Of a stretch of 15,182 nucleotides of DNA, positions 48 through 14,475 are shown piece after piece. The notes below the pieces were generated by a model. It did not search any database, was not told the origin of the DNA, and saw only the letters and a list, made by a program, of their open reading frames with translations. The stretch covers positions 1-15,182 of the forward strand of contig CAMLIF010000098.1 of NCBI GenBank assembly GCA_946479985.1, read 5' to 3'. Position 1 is the first letter of the stretch. Every line of letters begins with the position of its first letter. This stretch comes from an uncultured Flavobacteriales bacterium. GTDB taxonomy: Bacteria; Bacteroidota; Bacteroidia; Flavobacteriales; Crocinitomicaceae. A program made the translations under genes and the position numbers.

Positions 48-3000
48 GAGGTGTCTCACCTTATACGTTCAGCTATACCATAAACGGCGGACCGGTACAA
101 ACAATTACAACGGCTTCGGGTTCATCTACTGCCACAATTACAATTCCAACTAACACGCTAGGAACGTATATCATCGATTTGATCGGAGCAACTTCATCAT
201 TTAAATGTCCGTGTATCCTGAATCCAATACAGAATCAAGTCATAATAAACGTGGTTCCGGTTCCATGTACAAATCCAACAGGAACAGCTGCCATTTCGGG
301 TTATTGCGGAAGCACTACGGTTACTTTAACTGCATCGGGAGGGATAGCACCTTATACCTATAGTTTTTCTGTTAATGGTATACCTTATACTTTTTCAGGA
401 GGTAGCCCAATGTCTGTATCCGGACCGACGAATATGGGGTCTTGGCCAACAACATATACGATTACCGGGGGAACAGTTTCAAGTAATGGTTGTACTGGAA
501 CTTTAAGCGGCGTTGGCAGCGCTATTGTTTTTCCAATGGCTATAATTTCTGCATCGGTCAACACCACTAGTGTTTGCCAAAACGGAACATCTCCTGTAAT
601 CAATATCTGGAATAGCACTGCTACAGGAGCTACGTACAATTATACTGTGAATGGAGGACCTCAATTGTCAATCAGTAATAGTACATTTGGAGCGGTTAGT
701 TTGAACGTCCCTACTACAGTTGCGGGAACCTATATCTATACTATTAGCGGTTCGCTTGGTACTTGCCTTACAGGAACTCGTACAGTTATAATTGTTGTAA
801 AACCTTCACCCAGCGCAACCATTACAGGAACAACTTCTGTTTGTTTGAATAGCGCTTCTCCGAATGTGACCTTAACAGGAAGTGGGGCAACTGCTCCATA
901 TACATTAACTTACAATGTGAACGGGGGAGCCAATCAAACGGTGAGTGCTTCATCATCCACTACGATTCCTGTTTCAACAACAACTGCCGGAACATTTACG
1001 TATTCTTTGGTAAGTGCTGCCAGTGCAAATGGCTGTTCGCAGAATGTAAGTTCTTTGGCAATTGTTACTGTTAAACCCATACCAACAGCAGTCATTTCAG
1101 GTACAACTACGGTTTGTTTGGGTTCTGCATCTCCCCAAATTACGTTCACAGGAGCAAATGGCACGGCACCATATATTTTTACCTATCAAATCAACGGCGG
1201 AGCAAACCTAACAGTTAATTCGGGTGCTTCTTCTTCTGTTACGGTGAATGTACCAACAGGCACAGCGGGAACCTTTGTGTACACATTAGTGAGTGTGAGT
1301 TCAGCGGGCTGTTCTCAAAGCCAGGCTGGTTCTGCAACAGTTATAGTGAATACTTTGCCTGCAGCAGCAATTAGTGGAAATGCAGCAATATGCCAGAACA
1401 GCGGAAATCCAACAGTAACTTTTTCAGGCTCGGGGGCAACAGCACCGTATACATTTACTTACAATATTAATGGTGGAGCGAATCAAACGGTTACAAGTGT
1501 CACTTCGTTGATTACGATTTCTGCTCCCTCAGATGTTGCCGGAACATTTTTGTATAATTTGTCGAATGTTAGCAGCAGCAACGGGTGTTCACAAAATCAA
1601 AGTGCCACGGCAACAATTATGATTACACCGATGCCAACTGCAACCATTTCTGCAAATAATTCGGTTTGTCAAGGTTCCGGAACTACTCCGGTAACGTTTA
1701 CGGGTTCAGATGGCGCATCTTATCCATATAGTTTTTTCTATTCAGTAAACGGCGGCGGGACTCAATCTATCAGCTCAAGTTTATCGTCGAATACGGCTAC
1801 AATCAATGTCCCAACGACATCAGTTGGTTCAATTACATACAACATTATTTCGGTCACTAATTCAGGTTGTTTACAAGCGCAGCCAGGTTCAGTGACCATT
1901 GCAATTAATCCGGTACCAACAGCAACTATTTCGGGAGGAACTGCAGTTTGTCAAAACGATCCGCAGCCGGTAATTACATTTACGGGATCAAATGGTACTG
2001 CGCCTTATATTTTTACCTATAACCTTGGTGGTGGTCCGAACCAAACTGTTTCCAGCGGAAGTGGAAATACGGCAACTATTTCGGCACCGACTGGCACTAC
2101 CGGAACTTTTTTTTACAACTTATCGAGTGTTTCCTCTGCAAATGGATGCTCACAAAATCAATTTGGAAGCGCTGTTATTACAGTAGGCCAACTTCCAACG
2201 GCAACTATTTCCGGAGGTGCTGCAGTATGCCAGAATTCAGGGAATACTCCAGTTGTTTTTACCGGCGCGAATGGCTTTGGGGCTTATTCATTTACTTATA
2301 CCTTAAACGGAGGGCCTCCGCAAATAATTCTCAGCGGGGGAGGATCAACAGCAACTATCAATCAGACGAATACTGCAGCCGGTTCATACGTGTATCAGCT
2401 TATTTCGGTTTCAAGTGCAGGTTGTTCGCAAGCCCAGTCAGGATCGGTAACTGTTGACGTAAGCCTGATGCCAGTCTCAGCTATTTCAGGAACAGCAAGC
2501 GTTTGTCAGAACGATCCCGAGCCCGTTGTAACATTTACCGGTTCTAATGGAACGGCACCATATACTTTTACATATAATCTGAACGGTGGTGTAAACCAAA
2601 CTATTTCAACCTCAGGTGGAAATTCGGTGACACTGTCGGTTCCAACAACTGCAACAGGAACATTTAACTACAACTTAGTGAGCGTTTCGAGTGCAAATGG
2701 CTGCTCGCAAAATCAAACGGGAATGGCCTCAGTTATTGTAAAACCAACTCCTTCAGCTACACTTTCGGGTAATTTGTCGGCCTGTGAAAATCAATCAACT
2801 CCTTTTGTCTTTAGCGGTATCAACGGTGGTACTCCGTTTGTTTTTACTTACTCGGTTAATGGTGGACCTATACAAAGTATCACCGGTAACGCGGCAAATT
2901 TAGTAACGGCCTATGTTTATGCCAATCCTTTAGGAACGATGGAGTTCAATTTAATTGGTGTTACGAATCAAGAAGGCTGTTCGGCGATCGTTGATCTGAT

Positions 3001-4819
3001 AGCACAGGTTCAGGTAAATCCGATACCAATTATTTCAGGCGATTCGGTTATTTGTGAGGGAACAACTGTTCAATGGACAGGATCGGGAGTTCCTAATTCT
3101 GTGAATCCGTGGGTTTCCTCAAACGCTTCAGTTGCAATAGTCGATAATTCAGGATTAATTACCTGTGTTTCTTCCGGAACGGCAATGATCACTTACACCA
3201 ATGATTCTGGATGTTCGGTTTCAAAGACTATCAATGTTCTTGCTCTTCCATCTGCTTCTGTTTCGGTGAACTCAACGATATGTTCAGGAGAGGAAGGATT
3301 ATTTACCATCTCAGGAACTCCGTGGTCAATGGTAGATTATACCGATGGAACTTCAATTTATAATCTTTTAATTCCGCCTTCAGGAGATACATTGATCAAT
3401 GTCGGCGTACTTTCTGCTTCAGTAGACTTTGAATTGTTAAATGCTCAGGGACCGGCACCCGCTTCGTGCTCAACTATACTAACAGAAACCGTTTCGATTA
3501 ACGTAAGCCCGACTCCGGTTGCTGATCCGTTACAAGATCTTCTTTTTTGCTCAGGCGATTTAAGTATTGTTCCATCTTTTTCAGGAACTCCTTCCGGTAT
3601 TTCTTTCAATTGGACGAATTCAAATACAGCCATTGGTCTTACTTCAGCGGGAACAGGAAATATTAACGACTTCACTGCTATAAATAATCAATCGAACCCG
3701 ATTGCAGGAACAATTGATATTACCCCGATATTGAATGGCTGTACCGGTGAAGTGGTATCGTTTAATATTGTTGTGGGTAATTTACCATTCGCCAGTGCCG
3801 GATCAGATCAATCGGCATGTCAGAATGATGGAAACAGTTACCTGATCGGTTCTACAGCGGAAGCCGGAAATTCTTACCAGTGGTCACCGTCGACAGGGTT
3901 AAATAACGCGGCTATAGCCAATCCATCAATTATAAATGTTTCGCTTGCGGGTACAGAATATATTGTGACAGTTACAAACGGCCTGGGCTGTGAAAACAGT
4001 GATACTGTTCTTCTCGAAATACTTCCTTCGCCCATTGTTACGCTCAATGCTTCTGACATTGCTGCATGTCAATCGGCAATGATTTCATTTGACCTGGAAG
4101 CATCTAACGATTTATCGGTTGAATGGTTTATGGATGGACTCAGTATTGGGAATAACGATGAATTGTATTTAACCACAAATTTCGCAAGTTCCGGAATTCA
4201 TACGGTTTATGTTGTAGCTACAAATGCTTACGGTTGTTCTGTTACAGAAGGAATTGACGGGGGAATTCAGATCTATCCTGATGTTGACGCTCAATTCACA
4301 ACTGCTCAAAATCCGGATGATGTTGATGAGTTTACCGGTCAGCTGGATCTTATCAATCAATCTGAAAATGCTACAGGCTATGTTTGGATATACAACGGCA
4401 ATTCATTTTCAACAGAAACCGATCCAACCCTGTTCTTTAATCCGGGCTACGGGTTGATAGACATTGTTTTAGTTGCTGTAAACGAAATTGGCTGCGTTGA
4501 TACTGCTGAATTAAAGCTGATACCAAATTCAGAGGGATTAATTTATGTTCCGAATACTTTTACTCCAAACGGCGATGGAGTGAATGATTTGTTCTTCCCG
4601 GTGGTGTCGGAAAATTTTGATTTGACTGCTTGCCGACTGGAAATCTATAACCGTTGGGGCGAATTGATTTTTGAATCGGATGAAACGACAATTGCCTGGA
4701 ATGGTTTTTACCTTGGAGCGTTGTGCAAAACAGATACCTATGTTTGGAAACTAAGAGTGAATACACAGGAGTCGGGCTTTGCGGAATCGATAGAAGGGCA
4801 TGTTAACTTACTGAGATAA
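48..4819 (+). CDS. Giant Ig-like repeat surface protein with T9SS type B (CHU_C) sorting domain, 5'-truncated
   Basis: The frame is open from base 50 to the TAA at 4817-4819, giving 1589 residues with the N terminus missing. An internal TTG at 179 is not the start, because the frame upstream of it still encodes repeat-type sequence (SPYTFSYTINGGP). The first two thirds is a chain of roughly 90-residue Ig-like cassettes rich in Ser, Thr, Gly and Asn. Each has a VCxN-type cysteine near its start and usually a GCSQ cysteine near its end. From about 3026 the modules diverge, and a PKD-like domain lies at about 4279-4516. The last 92 residues (from 4541) form a CHU_C / gliding-motility C-terminal domain with the landmarks NTFTPNGDGVND, IYNRWGELIFES and YVWKL. 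That family directs export by the type IX system and surface attachment. No catalytic domain is visible, so adhesion or polymer binding is inferred. No terminator follows the stop. Confidence 0.93.
815..3025 (+). repeat. Eight in-frame Ig-like cassettes inside the surface-protein gene
   Basis: Counting from two codons before the Ile (or, in one cassette, Leu) of the TISG-like motif, cassettes begin at 815, 1088, 1364, 1640, 1922, 2201, 2477 and 2756, and a diverged ninth module begins at 3026. Spacings are 273, 276, 276, 282, 279, 276, 279 and 270 nt, all multiples of three. Each unit follows the order TISG, VCxN, VTFTGxNGTAPY, FTYxxNGGxNQT, PTxxxGTFxYNLxSVSS, NGCSQ. Further, more diverged units lie upstream (about 545-814 and a partial one from base 50). 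The copies differ clearly at nucleotide level, so this is an old expansion and not a recent tandem duplication. Confidence 0.9.
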
Positions 4820-4854
4820 TTGATCCTTCAATGTGTGGACGATTTTTTCAGGAG

Positions 4855-5085
4855 GTAACTTAACCAGATTCTCATGCAACTTGTCGCCAGGCTTCGGGAT
4901 GACCACTTATTATAAGCGCATCATCATTTTTCAACCGAGCAACTTGTCCCGATTCTTTGGGATCATCAGTTTTTACTAAAGCATGATCATTTCCGGGGAA
5001 TGCATCACCACTTTTCAGCAGCGCAGCTTGTTTTGATTCCCGTGCAGCTTGTCGATATTCTTGGGGATAATCACTTTCCATAACC
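4855..5085 (-). repeat. Degenerate 21-bp tandem repeat array, two alternating unit classes
   Basis: The stretch between the convergent surface-protein and proC genes holds no convincing gene but has a strict 21-bp period. Ten units fill 4876-5085 exactly, and a decayed eleventh occupies 4855-4875. Read on the minus strand, class I units end in ACAAGYTGC (starting at 5064, 5043, 4959 and 4896; the decayed one at 4875). Class II units end in TGRTNATSC (starting at 5085, 5022, 5001, 4980, 4938 and 4917). The minus-strand order is II, I, I, II, II, II, I, II, II, I, I'. Class II units end in CC when a class I unit follows and in GC otherwise. Because 21 is a multiple of three, the minus strand stays open across the array and would encode heptads such as PKESGQV or ARLKNDD. 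I cannot name a known repeat family. Flanks 4820-4854 and 5086-5142 show nothing clear. Confidence 0.85.
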
Positions 5086-5142
5086 AATCACAATCGGGTA
5101 AACAACGTTCCCATTTATGCGTTAGATCACCGAGAGCTTTTT

Positions 5143-5934
5143 TTACTTCTTCTCGATTTTCTGGTAACTCGTCACAATTCCTTTAATAAGTGCCGAGCTG
5201 AATCCGCTGTGTTCCATCTCGTTCAAGCCAACAATCGTACATCCTTTAGGTGTTGTAACCTTATCAATTTCCTCTTCCGGATGCAAACCGTTCTGAATCA
5301 ACAGTTGTGCAGCTCCTTTTACGGTTTGACTCACGATTTTATTCGCCGTTTTAGCGTCAAATCCAACTTCAATTCCTCCCTGGATCATTGCTCTAATAAA
5401 TCTTAGAGCATAAGCAATGCCACATGCTCCGAGAATGGTTGCACTTTCCATCAATGCTTCATCAATCCAGACAGTTTCGCCGATTGCATTGAATAATTCC
5501 GTCACATTTTCTTTTCTGTTCAAGGGATCTTTTTGTGCGCTTAAAGCGGTGATGCTTTCCTGAACATCTGCGGCAGTATTCGGCATTCCACGATAAAGTG
5601 AAAAGGTTTCAGTTCCCAGTACTGTTTGAATCTCGTTTAAATTAATTCCGGTTGCAACACTGATAATGGTGTGTCGTGCCGGATCAAAATTCGGCTGGAA
5701 TTCTTTCAGGAAATCGAGGATCATATAAGGTTTCAGCGCAATAATCAGGAAATCACACTGAGCAATTACTTCCTCGTTATTTGCAGAAAAATGGGTAGAA
5801 CTGTTTTCATATTGTTTCAGTAATTCAACATTTCTGCGGGTTCCGAACAGTTGTGCCTGGGGGTATTGTTTCCGGAGGCCTTTCAATAATGATAATCCTA
5901 AGTTCCCGCATCCAATAATCCCAATCTTTTCCAT
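5143..5934 (-). CDS. proC: Pyrroline-5-carboxylate reductase
   Basis: This enzyme catalyses the last step of proline synthesis, NAD(P)H-dependent reduction of 1-pyrroline-5-carboxylate to L-proline, in the cytoplasm. At 263 residues it has the usual family length. The N terminus carries a Rossmann nucleotide-binding loop, IGIIGCGNLG (GxGxxG at residues 8-13). The family motif MPNT is at 117-120. The C-terminal helical dimerisation domain contains the P5CR signature around residues 226-245 (TTPKGCTIVGLNEMEHSGF), where E. coli-type enzymes have a similar TxPxGxT pattern. The ATG at 5934-5932 lies 18 nt from a near-perfect Bacteroidota promoter, which supports this start. It appears to be transcribed alone, diverging from the membrane-protein gene and converging on the 21-bp repeat array. 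No clear terminator follows it. Confidence 0.95.
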   Translation of the reverse strand: MEKIGIIGCGNLGLSLLKGLRKQYPQAQLFGTRRNVELLKQYENSSTHFSANNEEVIAQCDFLIIALKPYMILDFLKEFQPNFDPARHTIISVATGINLNEIQTVLGTETFSLYRGMPNTAADVQESITALSAQKDPLNRKENVTELFNAIGETVWIDEALMESATILGACGIAYALRFIRAMIQGGIEVGFDAKTANKIVSQTVKGAAQLLIQNGLHPEEEIDKVTTPKGCTIVGLNEMEHSGFSSALIKGIVTSYQKIEKK

Positions 5935-12478: not shown

Positions 12479-13054
12479 ATGATCAAGAAAATCATTGCCA
12501 TTAATGTCTTCACGTTCTTGTGTATGTTATTGCTTTCAGTAACATATCCCTTGGTGATTTCTGCAATTGCACAACTTGGACCGAACCATGGAAAAGGGGA
12601 AGTTCTTTCCCTGGATGGAAAAACGGTCGGATTTCGTCGTGAAGGACAATCCTTTACCGGCGAAAGCTATTTCTGGGGAAGACCTTCGGCGGTTAATTAT
12701 AACGGTGCCGGAAGCGGCGGAAGTAATAAAGGACCTTCTAATCCCGATTATTTGAAAGAAGTAGAGGCTCGAATTGATACGTTCCTTTTGCACCATCCTT
12801 ATCTCGATAGAAAAGCTGTACCCGCTGAAATGGTCACTGCTTCCGGTAGTGGATTGGATCCGCATATTTCACCGAAAGCTGCCGCCGTGCAAGTGAAACG
12901 TGTGTCGTTGGCAACAGGAGTGGATGAACAAACGCTTCAGTCGCTGGTAAAAAAACATACCGAACAACCGCTGATCGGAGCCTTCGGTCCTTCAACTGTA
13001 AATGTGCTGGAACTGAATCTGGCATTGAATAATCTTAAAACTAGAATCCGCTAA
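12479..13054 (+). CDS. kdpC: K+-transporting ATPase subunit C
   Basis: KdpC is a single-pass membrane protein with a periplasmic domain that assists the pump. The 191-residue product (E. coli 190) starts with a membrane helix (about 8-30, INVFTFLCMLLLSVTYPLVI). It contains the family motifs FWGRPSAVNYN, GGSNKGPSNPDY and SGSGLDPHISPKAA, followed by a conserved C terminus with QVKRVSLATG and IGAFGPSTVNVLELNLAL. A short inverted repeat spans its stop codon (TCCGC at 13047-13051, GCGGA at 13056-13060). It has no T tract on this strand, so it is unlikely to terminate transcription strongly, and the next gene can be read through. Confidence 0.97.
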   Translation: MIKKIIAINVFTFLCMLLLSVTYPLVISAIAQLGPNHGKGEVLSLDGKTVGFRREGQSFTGESYFWGRPSAVNYNGAGSGGSNKGPSNPDYLKEVEARIDTFLLHHPYLDRKAVPAEMVTASGSGLDPHISPKAAAVQVKRVSLATGVDEQTLQSLVKKHTEQPLIGAFGPSTVNVLELNLALNNLKTRIR

Positions 13055-13110
13055 AGCGGACATTAAATAATCTGCGAGAAGTGGATTGAACATAAATTAA
13101 ATAAAGCAAC

Positions 13111-14475
13111 ATGAAAAAAATCAGTACTTGCATTGCAATAGCAATCAGTTTACAACTTTCCGCTCAGGAAAAAGAGGAAGCACCAAAAATCCCGTTTGAT
13201 GGAATAGATGCTACTTGGCAAAATGGAAGTGATAGAAGAACAGAAAATATTTGGAGCGAAATGAAATATTTCACTCCCTCGTTGATGATAGATGTGAATT
13301 ATACCTATTCGTTCAATAATCCAAACGATAACACCGTTGTTGGTTCAACTGCCTTAACCCGAAACAATGAAGTTCAACTTTCAGCACTTCATTTTGGAGG
13401 CGATTTCAATTATAAAAATGCGCGCGGTCGTTTTATGACTCAATTTGGAACGCGTTCTATTGTTGTTCCAAGAAACGATTACAGTCCATACAAGGGTCAG
13501 TACCAGTTGGCTAACGTATACCGTAACATCAGTGAAGCCTATGCTGGTTATCATTTCAATAAGTGGTACGGAATCAATGTTGATGCCGGGTTATTTATGT
13601 CCTACATTGGTTTGAATTCCTTCTACCAGACGGAAAACTGGGAATACCAGGCTTCTTTTACTTCTGATAACACACCTTGGTTCTTCAATGGGGTTCGTGT
13701 TCAAATTCACCCGACTAAAAATCTAAAAATAGAGCCCTGGATTATTAATGGCTGGCAGAGTTACGGTAAATTCAATACGCAGCCGGGTGTGGGAGGAAAT
13801 ATTACGTGGATGTCGGACAACAGTAATCTTAAATTGTTGACAAACAATTATTATGGGACTTATGCCGCTGGCTTGAAAGATAGAAAGCGGTTCCATTCAG
13901 ATAACAGTATTTTGGTGCGTTATTTCAATCGCCCGGAATCTAAGAAAATCAGCAGAATGGCATTTTCACTAACCGGCGATTTCGGTTTCGAGAAAGGTGG
14001 CGGCGTAAATGGTCTTAGAAACGGAGATAGTCTTGAGGGACCTGCACAGTATTTTGCCAGTGTCATGTTTTATAACAGAGTTTGGTTCGGCAAAAATAAG
14101 TTTGCCTGGACAGTTGGCGGGGGTGTAATGACGAACCCCGGAAGATACCTGGTTCTTTATCCTACGGGACAAGCGAGTCCATTACCAAATGCTTCAAATC
14201 CAACTCAAACGGAGGGAGCATTTCCTTTCAGTGCGAGCCCGGGTGATCAATTCAAAGGTTGGGATTGTTCAACAAACATCGATTTCATGCCAAATCAAAG
14301 TATTACCTTTAGAATAGAAGCAGTTTACAGACATTCTTCAGTTCCTTACTTTGCTGGTGCCGGAGGTGTAACTTCGCAAACAGGTTACTCAACGACTGTA
14401 CTTGATCCGGCGTGGCGACCTGATTTGGTGAAATCGGAATTCAGAATTATTGCGGCTTTGCTGTTCAGAATATAG
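13111..14475 (+). CDS. Outer-membrane beta-barrel protein, probable porin (OmpL/BBP2-like)
   Basis: This 454-residue protein has a cleavable signal peptide (MKKISTCIAIAISLQLSAQ, with cleavage predicted just before or after the Gln). The mature part shows alternating aromatic/polar strands throughout (LMIDVNYTYSFN, GGDFNYKNARGRFMTQFG, AGYHFNKWYGINVDAGLF) and ends with a barrel-closing strand, EFRIIAALLFRI. This is the pattern of the putative beta-barrel porin-2 family, common in Bacteroidota. It lies 56 nt downstream of kdpC and upstream of kdpD, suggesting that the pore belongs to the potassium-starvation response, perhaps admitting K+ to the periplasm. Family placement is from pattern recognition, and the K+ role is inference. 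No separate promoter is obvious in the 56-nt gap. Confidence 0.85.
   Translation: MKKISTCIAIAISLQLSAQEKEEAPKIPFDGIDATWQNGSDRRTENIWSEMKYFTPSLMIDVNYTYSFNNPNDNTVVGSTALTRNNEVQLSALHFGGDFNYKNARGRFMTQFGTRSIVVPRNDYSPYKGQYQLANVYRNISEAYAGYHFNKWYGINVDAGLFMSYIGLNSFYQTENWEYQASFTSDNTPWFFNGVRVQIHPTKNLKIEPWIINGWQSYGKFNTQPGVGGNITWMSDNSNLKLLTNNYYGTYAAGLKDRKRFHSDNSILVRYFNRPESKKISRMAFSLTGDFGFEKGGGVNGLRNGDSLEGPAQYFASVMFYNRVWFGKNKFAWTVGGGVMTNPGRYLVLYPTGQASPLPNASNPTQTEGAFPFSASPGDQFKGWDCSTNIDFMPNQSITFRIEAVYRHSSVPYFAGAGGVTSQTGYSTTVLDPAWRPDLVKSEFRIIAALLFRI

Follow-up and report, generated by a model that had tools for sequence, protein, structure and literature searches.

The array and its genomic setting

Does a short, strongly diverged tandem array between two convergent genes carry a function, or is it ordinary repeat DNA, and from what was it built? 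The array lies in a stretch of 15,182 nucleotides that was analysed whole and is referred to here as the window. Ten units of 21 bp fill positions 4876-5085 on the minus strand and fall into two classes, which, read from 5085, follow in the order II I I II II II I II II I. Identity is 10-16 of 21 bases (48-76%) within a class and 3-11 of 21 between the classes, and the register is perfect over 210 bp, with no indel among the ten units. The nonamer ACAAGYTGC was found in all four class I units and TGRTNATSC in all six class II units, and the best nine-column block showed less change than all but 0.17% of column permutations (p = 0.0017). The period-21 score of the array was 1.18, and none of 20,000 array-like sequences simulated with a first-order Markov model scored above 1.07; for the window it was 0.492, with 0.377 as the highest value among 1,000 windows simulated with a second-order model. 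A preliminary description of this DNA, made from the sequence alone, had reported the exact register without slippage and the two classes with their conserved nonamers, and had proposed an autocorrelation test against shuffled sequence. The 21-bp period stood far above that of simulated sequence, and the array is confirmed as real.

The same description began the array at 4855. At positions 4855-4875 (minus strand) there is a degenerate eleventh unit. It agrees with the four class I units in 10-14 of 21 bases and with those of class II in 5-9 of 21; since it resembles class I more than class II, this start is justified. A class II unit was also said to end in CC when a class I unit comes next and otherwise in GC. 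All six class II units obey this rule (three end in CC before class I and three in GC before class II); by our own arithmetic, with so few units, the rule alone corresponds to about p = 0.05. Head-to-tail units of constant length are a trait that the array shares with minisatellites (VNTRs), a bacterial class of tandem repeats that it also resembles in its short units and its place in intergenic DNA. Unlike those of a typical VNTR, its units are far more diverged, and Tandem Repeats Finder did not report the array even at a score of 30.

The neighbouring genes are convergent, as first described. The gene at 179-4819 (plus strand), whose product is a large repeat protein carrying a CHU_C domain (type IX secretion), ends at 4819, and proC, which encodes pyrroline-5-carboxylate reductase (5143-5934, minus strand), ends at 5143. 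Compared with the proC proteins of Fluviicola-group genomes, that of the window reaches 82% identity. Beyond proC, the window continues with a sigma-54 regulator and kdp genes, and its DNA looks like that of the chromosome of a Fluviicola-like bacterium. A gene for a BBP2-type beta-barrel porin lies between kdpC and kdpD, at 13111-14475. Iteron arrays of replication origins have a unit length near 20 bp and fixed spacing, and the array shares both, but its neighbours (proC, kdp) are genes of chromosomal type. No replication gene was among the proteins identified in the window and no plasmid match was found for the array, which agrees with the earlier remark that nothing else here suggests a replication origin. 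The 500 bp downstream of proC held a different sequence in all 12 relatives printed, and pairs of nonamers at multiples of 21 bp were found in none of the 22 nearest loci. By this comparison, the array locus appears not to be kept among relatives.

A dispersed hairpin element within the array

A 24-bp hairpin element, consisting of AACTTG, a stem of TCCCGA and TCGGGA around four nucleotides, and a final T (pattern CAACTTGTCCCGANTCTTCGGGAT), was found to be dispersed in the genus. With up to 3 mismatches, the pattern gave 31 matches in 7 of the 14 genus genomes, while the reversed-pattern control gave 0. A stricter pattern gave 26 matches in 12 of 399 genomes of the order, 20 of them in six genus genomes and one in each of six others. 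In the window, two matches were found with up to 3 mismatches, both inside the array, compared to 0 in 200 shuffles. These copies, at 4940-4963 (plus strand, 1 mismatch) and 4877-4900 (plus strand, 3 mismatches), place the element at two of the three junctions where a class II unit ending in CC meets a class I unit. A probable third copy, at 5045-5068 (plus strand), is degenerate; with 5 mismatches it is beyond the 3-mismatch limit and is counted only by its position at the remaining junction of this kind. The six-pair stem is intact in the first copy (6/6 pairs, one of them G-T) and reduced to 4/6 pairs in the other two, which does not suggest that the array is maintained for its hairpins.

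Class I together with the CC ending of the preceding class II unit is thus a copy of the dispersed element, and the CC/GC rule holds because the CC is part of an arm of the hairpin. The preliminary description had taken the rule to imply a higher-order composite unit. The rule stands, and is better read as a hairpin element lying across the boundary between II and I. Its suggestion of a mobile repeat family survives to the extent that class I is dispersed; class II does not belong to the element.

A rough ORF caller was used to locate thirty copies of the hairpin relative to genes. Half of them (15) separate tandem genes, 9 are within ORFs of at least 80 aa, and the others are between convergent (4) or divergent (2) genes. 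Since most copies are between tandem genes or in ORFs, a link to convergent genes is not supported. REP-like elements are dispersed short palindromic repeats of bacteria, and the element is like them in being a short hairpin with many copies per genome that is largely intergenic (21 of the 30 copies are outside ORFs). It differs from them in that some copies lie in a 21-bp tandem array, where one in three keeps its stem.

A DNA search with the array against 299 genomes of the order, in which only one or two candidates were scored per genome, found 229 with weak matches at E <= 1. The best (G001, E 3.4e-6) covered array positions 74-119. Six loci from this search were read, and an intergenic hairpin was seen in L233, L234 and L237 and none in L235, L236 and L238. 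At about position 1501 of three other loci (L261, L264 and L265), the 24-bp core stands between outer inverted arms (e.g. GCGCGAG ... CTCGTGCC), as if a larger palindrome carried it in its loop. Two cores lie in tandem with a spacing of 30 bp at L249 1501-1554 (G025), which shows that the core can be copied in tandem at a spacing other than 21 bp.

Class II and relatives of the whole array

Class II was looked for beside the hairpin elsewhere, and 28 of the 29 distinct copies gave p >= 0.06 at the in-register place. The sole class II-like neighbour was at L242 (p = 0.006 before correction). The in-register mean across the copies was not above background, and two shifted registers outscored it. 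Class II therefore has no convincing relatives and lies outside the dispersed element. We also considered the entire II-I dimer as the dispersed unit and dropped this reading, since class II is not enriched beside the 29 copies.

Protein, Rfam, plasmid and genome searches gave no relative of the whole array. A pattern for the I-to-II junction with up to 2 mismatches gave 122 matches in the 14 genus genomes, none of them exact, compared to 52 for the reversed pattern, a control that does not preserve dinucleotides; the excess runs against pure chance. A four-unit scan of 112 loci, which took in ten loci fetched from this junction search, gave a score of 93.0 for the window array, 23.1 for the best locus and 15.1 for the best simulated sequence. 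That locus (L014) has no repeat and sits in a long open frame, and it was rejected as a relative. In viral contigs, the II-to-I pattern was found in at least 120 stretches, and the best locus among the matches listed scored 25.9. At the level of listings and abstract openings, the literature gave no description of such arrays.

Other 21-bp arrays in the genus

Five genus genomes were scanned for periodicity over a total of 2.4 Mb (800 kb from Fluviicola chungangensis, G005, and 400 kb each from G001, G002, G021 and G025), of which 403 kb are outside ORFs of at least 150 aa. Eleven period-21 rows were found outside these ORFs and all were read. Four of them represent three diverged arrays. In F. 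chungangensis, array A (L276 15434-15937) has 24 units of 21 bp and contains the hairpin element twice, in register, and array B (L276 17510-17803) has 14 units of two roughly alternating classes. The third, in G002, is a weaker 21/42-bp two-class array with indels (L352 9737-9925). Of the remaining seven rows, two were 7-bp repeats; a 63-bp duplication, a simple repeat, a masked run of N, an AT-rich segment and one that looks coding accounted for one row each. Further period-21 hits were in coding regions and included coiled-coil-like and SprB-like repeats. Of the refuting outcome named in the preliminary description, about half was thus seen: both classes in tandem were absent from every relative searched, but intergenic 21-bp arrays of other sequence are present in two of the five sampled genus genomes, and the 21-bp period is far stronger than in simulated sequence.

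The three arrays resemble that of the window in being intergenic and in having diverged 21-bp units of more than one class, and array A also shares the hairpin element. They differ in their unit sequences and, in G002, in having indels. Apart from the hairpin unit, no nonamer is common to the window, G005 and G002 arrays. Array A had 17 non-self matches in the genus, 13 over the hairpin and 4 over other pieces of about 30 bp. In these samples, the 21-bp design recurs and the sequences mostly do not. Periods of 12-16 and 29/58 also gave hits in the scan, and 21 bp is not claimed to be the only recurring period. The simulated control for the genome samples was unusable at shorter periods, where one of its sample values was at or above every real one. 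A masked N run, as in L278, counts as periodic, and this probably spoiled the control as well. The window's own control was separate.

Origin of the array and alternative explanations

On balance, we favour the explanation that the array is an intergenic minisatellite that has diverged and that arose in part from a hairpin repeat specific to the lineage. It looks like ordinary repeat DNA, and the analysis revealed no function for it. The explanation is based on the dispersed hairpin, its copies within the array, array A and the point changes between units, together with the lack of codon constraint, the ordinary folding and curvature described below, and a locus that is not kept. We infer the order of events and the mechanism of duplication, as well as the lack of function. 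A 24-bp hairpin element of the Fluviicola lineage would have come to lie between the convergent genes. Slippage or unequal recombination could have multiplied it, together with the adjacent sequence (class II), in units of 21 bp, and point mutation would have worn these down afterwards. Some findings argue against this explanation. Neutral decay should have left some indels, yet there is none in 210 bp at 48-76% identity. The conserved nine-base block (p = 0.0017) is not explained by the dispersed element because the stem arms vary in the array. Also, class II is outside the dispersed element, and the multiplication step is unobserved, as the searches turned up no intermediate in which the two classes stand in tandem. 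As a decayed satellite, the locus would deserve a modest annotation, namely a Fluviicola lineage-specific hairpin repeat and a tandem array containing it; arrays like this can enter protein collections as small heptad proteins.

This account leaves the absence of indels and the nonamer conservation least well explained, and both keep alive another explanation, that the array binds a protein, such as the repeat-reading protein suggested in the preliminary description. With 21 bp making up two helical turns, the nonamers would all lie on one face of the DNA, separated by 12 bp of free spacer. The nine-column conservation beyond permutation, the fixed spacing without indels and the equal unit length, with other sequences, in G005 and G002 fit this. 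We nevertheless consider it unlikely, given that no nonamer outside the hairpin unit recurs between the arrays, that two different nonamers would need two readers and that the array is missing downstream of proC in the relatives printed. We know of no binding protein for the array. Predicted curvature, computed from wedge parameters, was at least as high in 24% of simulated sequences as in the window array, with AA/TT phasing at p = 0.42. Of the other arrays, A is predicted to be strongly curved (0.1%, and 2.6% for its second part), and B (53%) and that of G002 (11%) are not.

A coding function is improbable, whether as a small gene for a heptad-repeat protein of 69-71 aa or as the remains of a repeat-protein gene in another minus-strand frame. 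An open frame of 71 aa (69 aa from ATG; 4872-5087, minus strand) does run through all ten units, and a protein collection lists it (P0001, 69 aa, longest contig 6,788 bases compared to the 15,182 of the window). However, runs without a stop reach this length in 51% of arrays resampled by column and in 41% of those from a Markov model, and such a frame is therefore expected by chance; in it, the variable nonamer positions fall on codon positions 1 and 2. The frame, which we do not think is a gene, found only itself among 5.8 billion proteins. Genome searches with it gave a hit in 1 of 20 at E <= 10 and in 11 of 200 family genomes at E <= 1, the best being 0.148 (L081), a locus rejected as a relative since it has no 21-bp period. 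The second frame (4811-5182, minus strand) has six internal stops and is protein-like in places (VIIPKNIDKLH..., ENLVKLPPEKIVHTLKDQLSQ), including its end. In its nonamers, the positions that vary are synonymous or conservative (CTG/TTG; I/V/M), and stops recur near the start of its class II units. Read through (P0002), it had no protein homolog; 34 of 200 genomes gave hits at E <= 1 (best 0.013), as expected by chance for that many genomes. Pfam gave no family for the array frames, and the frame of array A (G005) had no protein hit. Over six frames, pN/pS was 0.69-1.13 and changes were even across codon positions. No frame shows codon constraint, and the purifying selection of a heptad-repeat protein was not seen; the dN/dS check thus upheld the first impression of no excess of silent changes.

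A structured RNA or a two-way terminator region for the convergent genes is about as improbable. One terminator-like site, a hairpin with a T-rich tail, was found at 4946-4963 (plus strand), but 0.7 are expected. RNA folding was no better than that of shuffles (z = -0.42 on the minus strand and +0.83 on the plus strand), Rfam had no match up to E 1 in 4700-5300, and inverted repeats of at least 12 bases were not found. A structured 3' UTR, as had been suggested, is unsupported, with ordinary folding on both strands.

We give the least credence to a loose class of Fluviicola intergenic arrays, with the window array as a member, that would have in common no sequence but a unit length of exactly 21 bp (two turns), each unit being part conserved and part variable, and that would form phased binding platforms for a nucleoid or recombination protein; if functional, this class would be a case where spacing, not sequence, is conserved.

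Some further repeats were seen in these genomes. Arrays A and B of F. chungangensis are about 1.6 kb apart, and each is followed by a similar sequence (ATCCTGYAGGG...CGATTAATCG). Intergenic 7-bp tandem repeats occur in G002, near-perfect at L351 ~16675 (GAATTAT) and imperfect at L361 ~14550 (CAGTCTC-like). A period-29 hit was found in G005 (L401 15307), and G021 has well-conserved intergenic arrays of period 58 (29) at L289 ~12900-13400 and L302 ~18200-18600, which have the motifs GTAGCTTTTGAAGACT / AGTCTTCAAAAGC and ACAAACGTTAGTGCGG in common.
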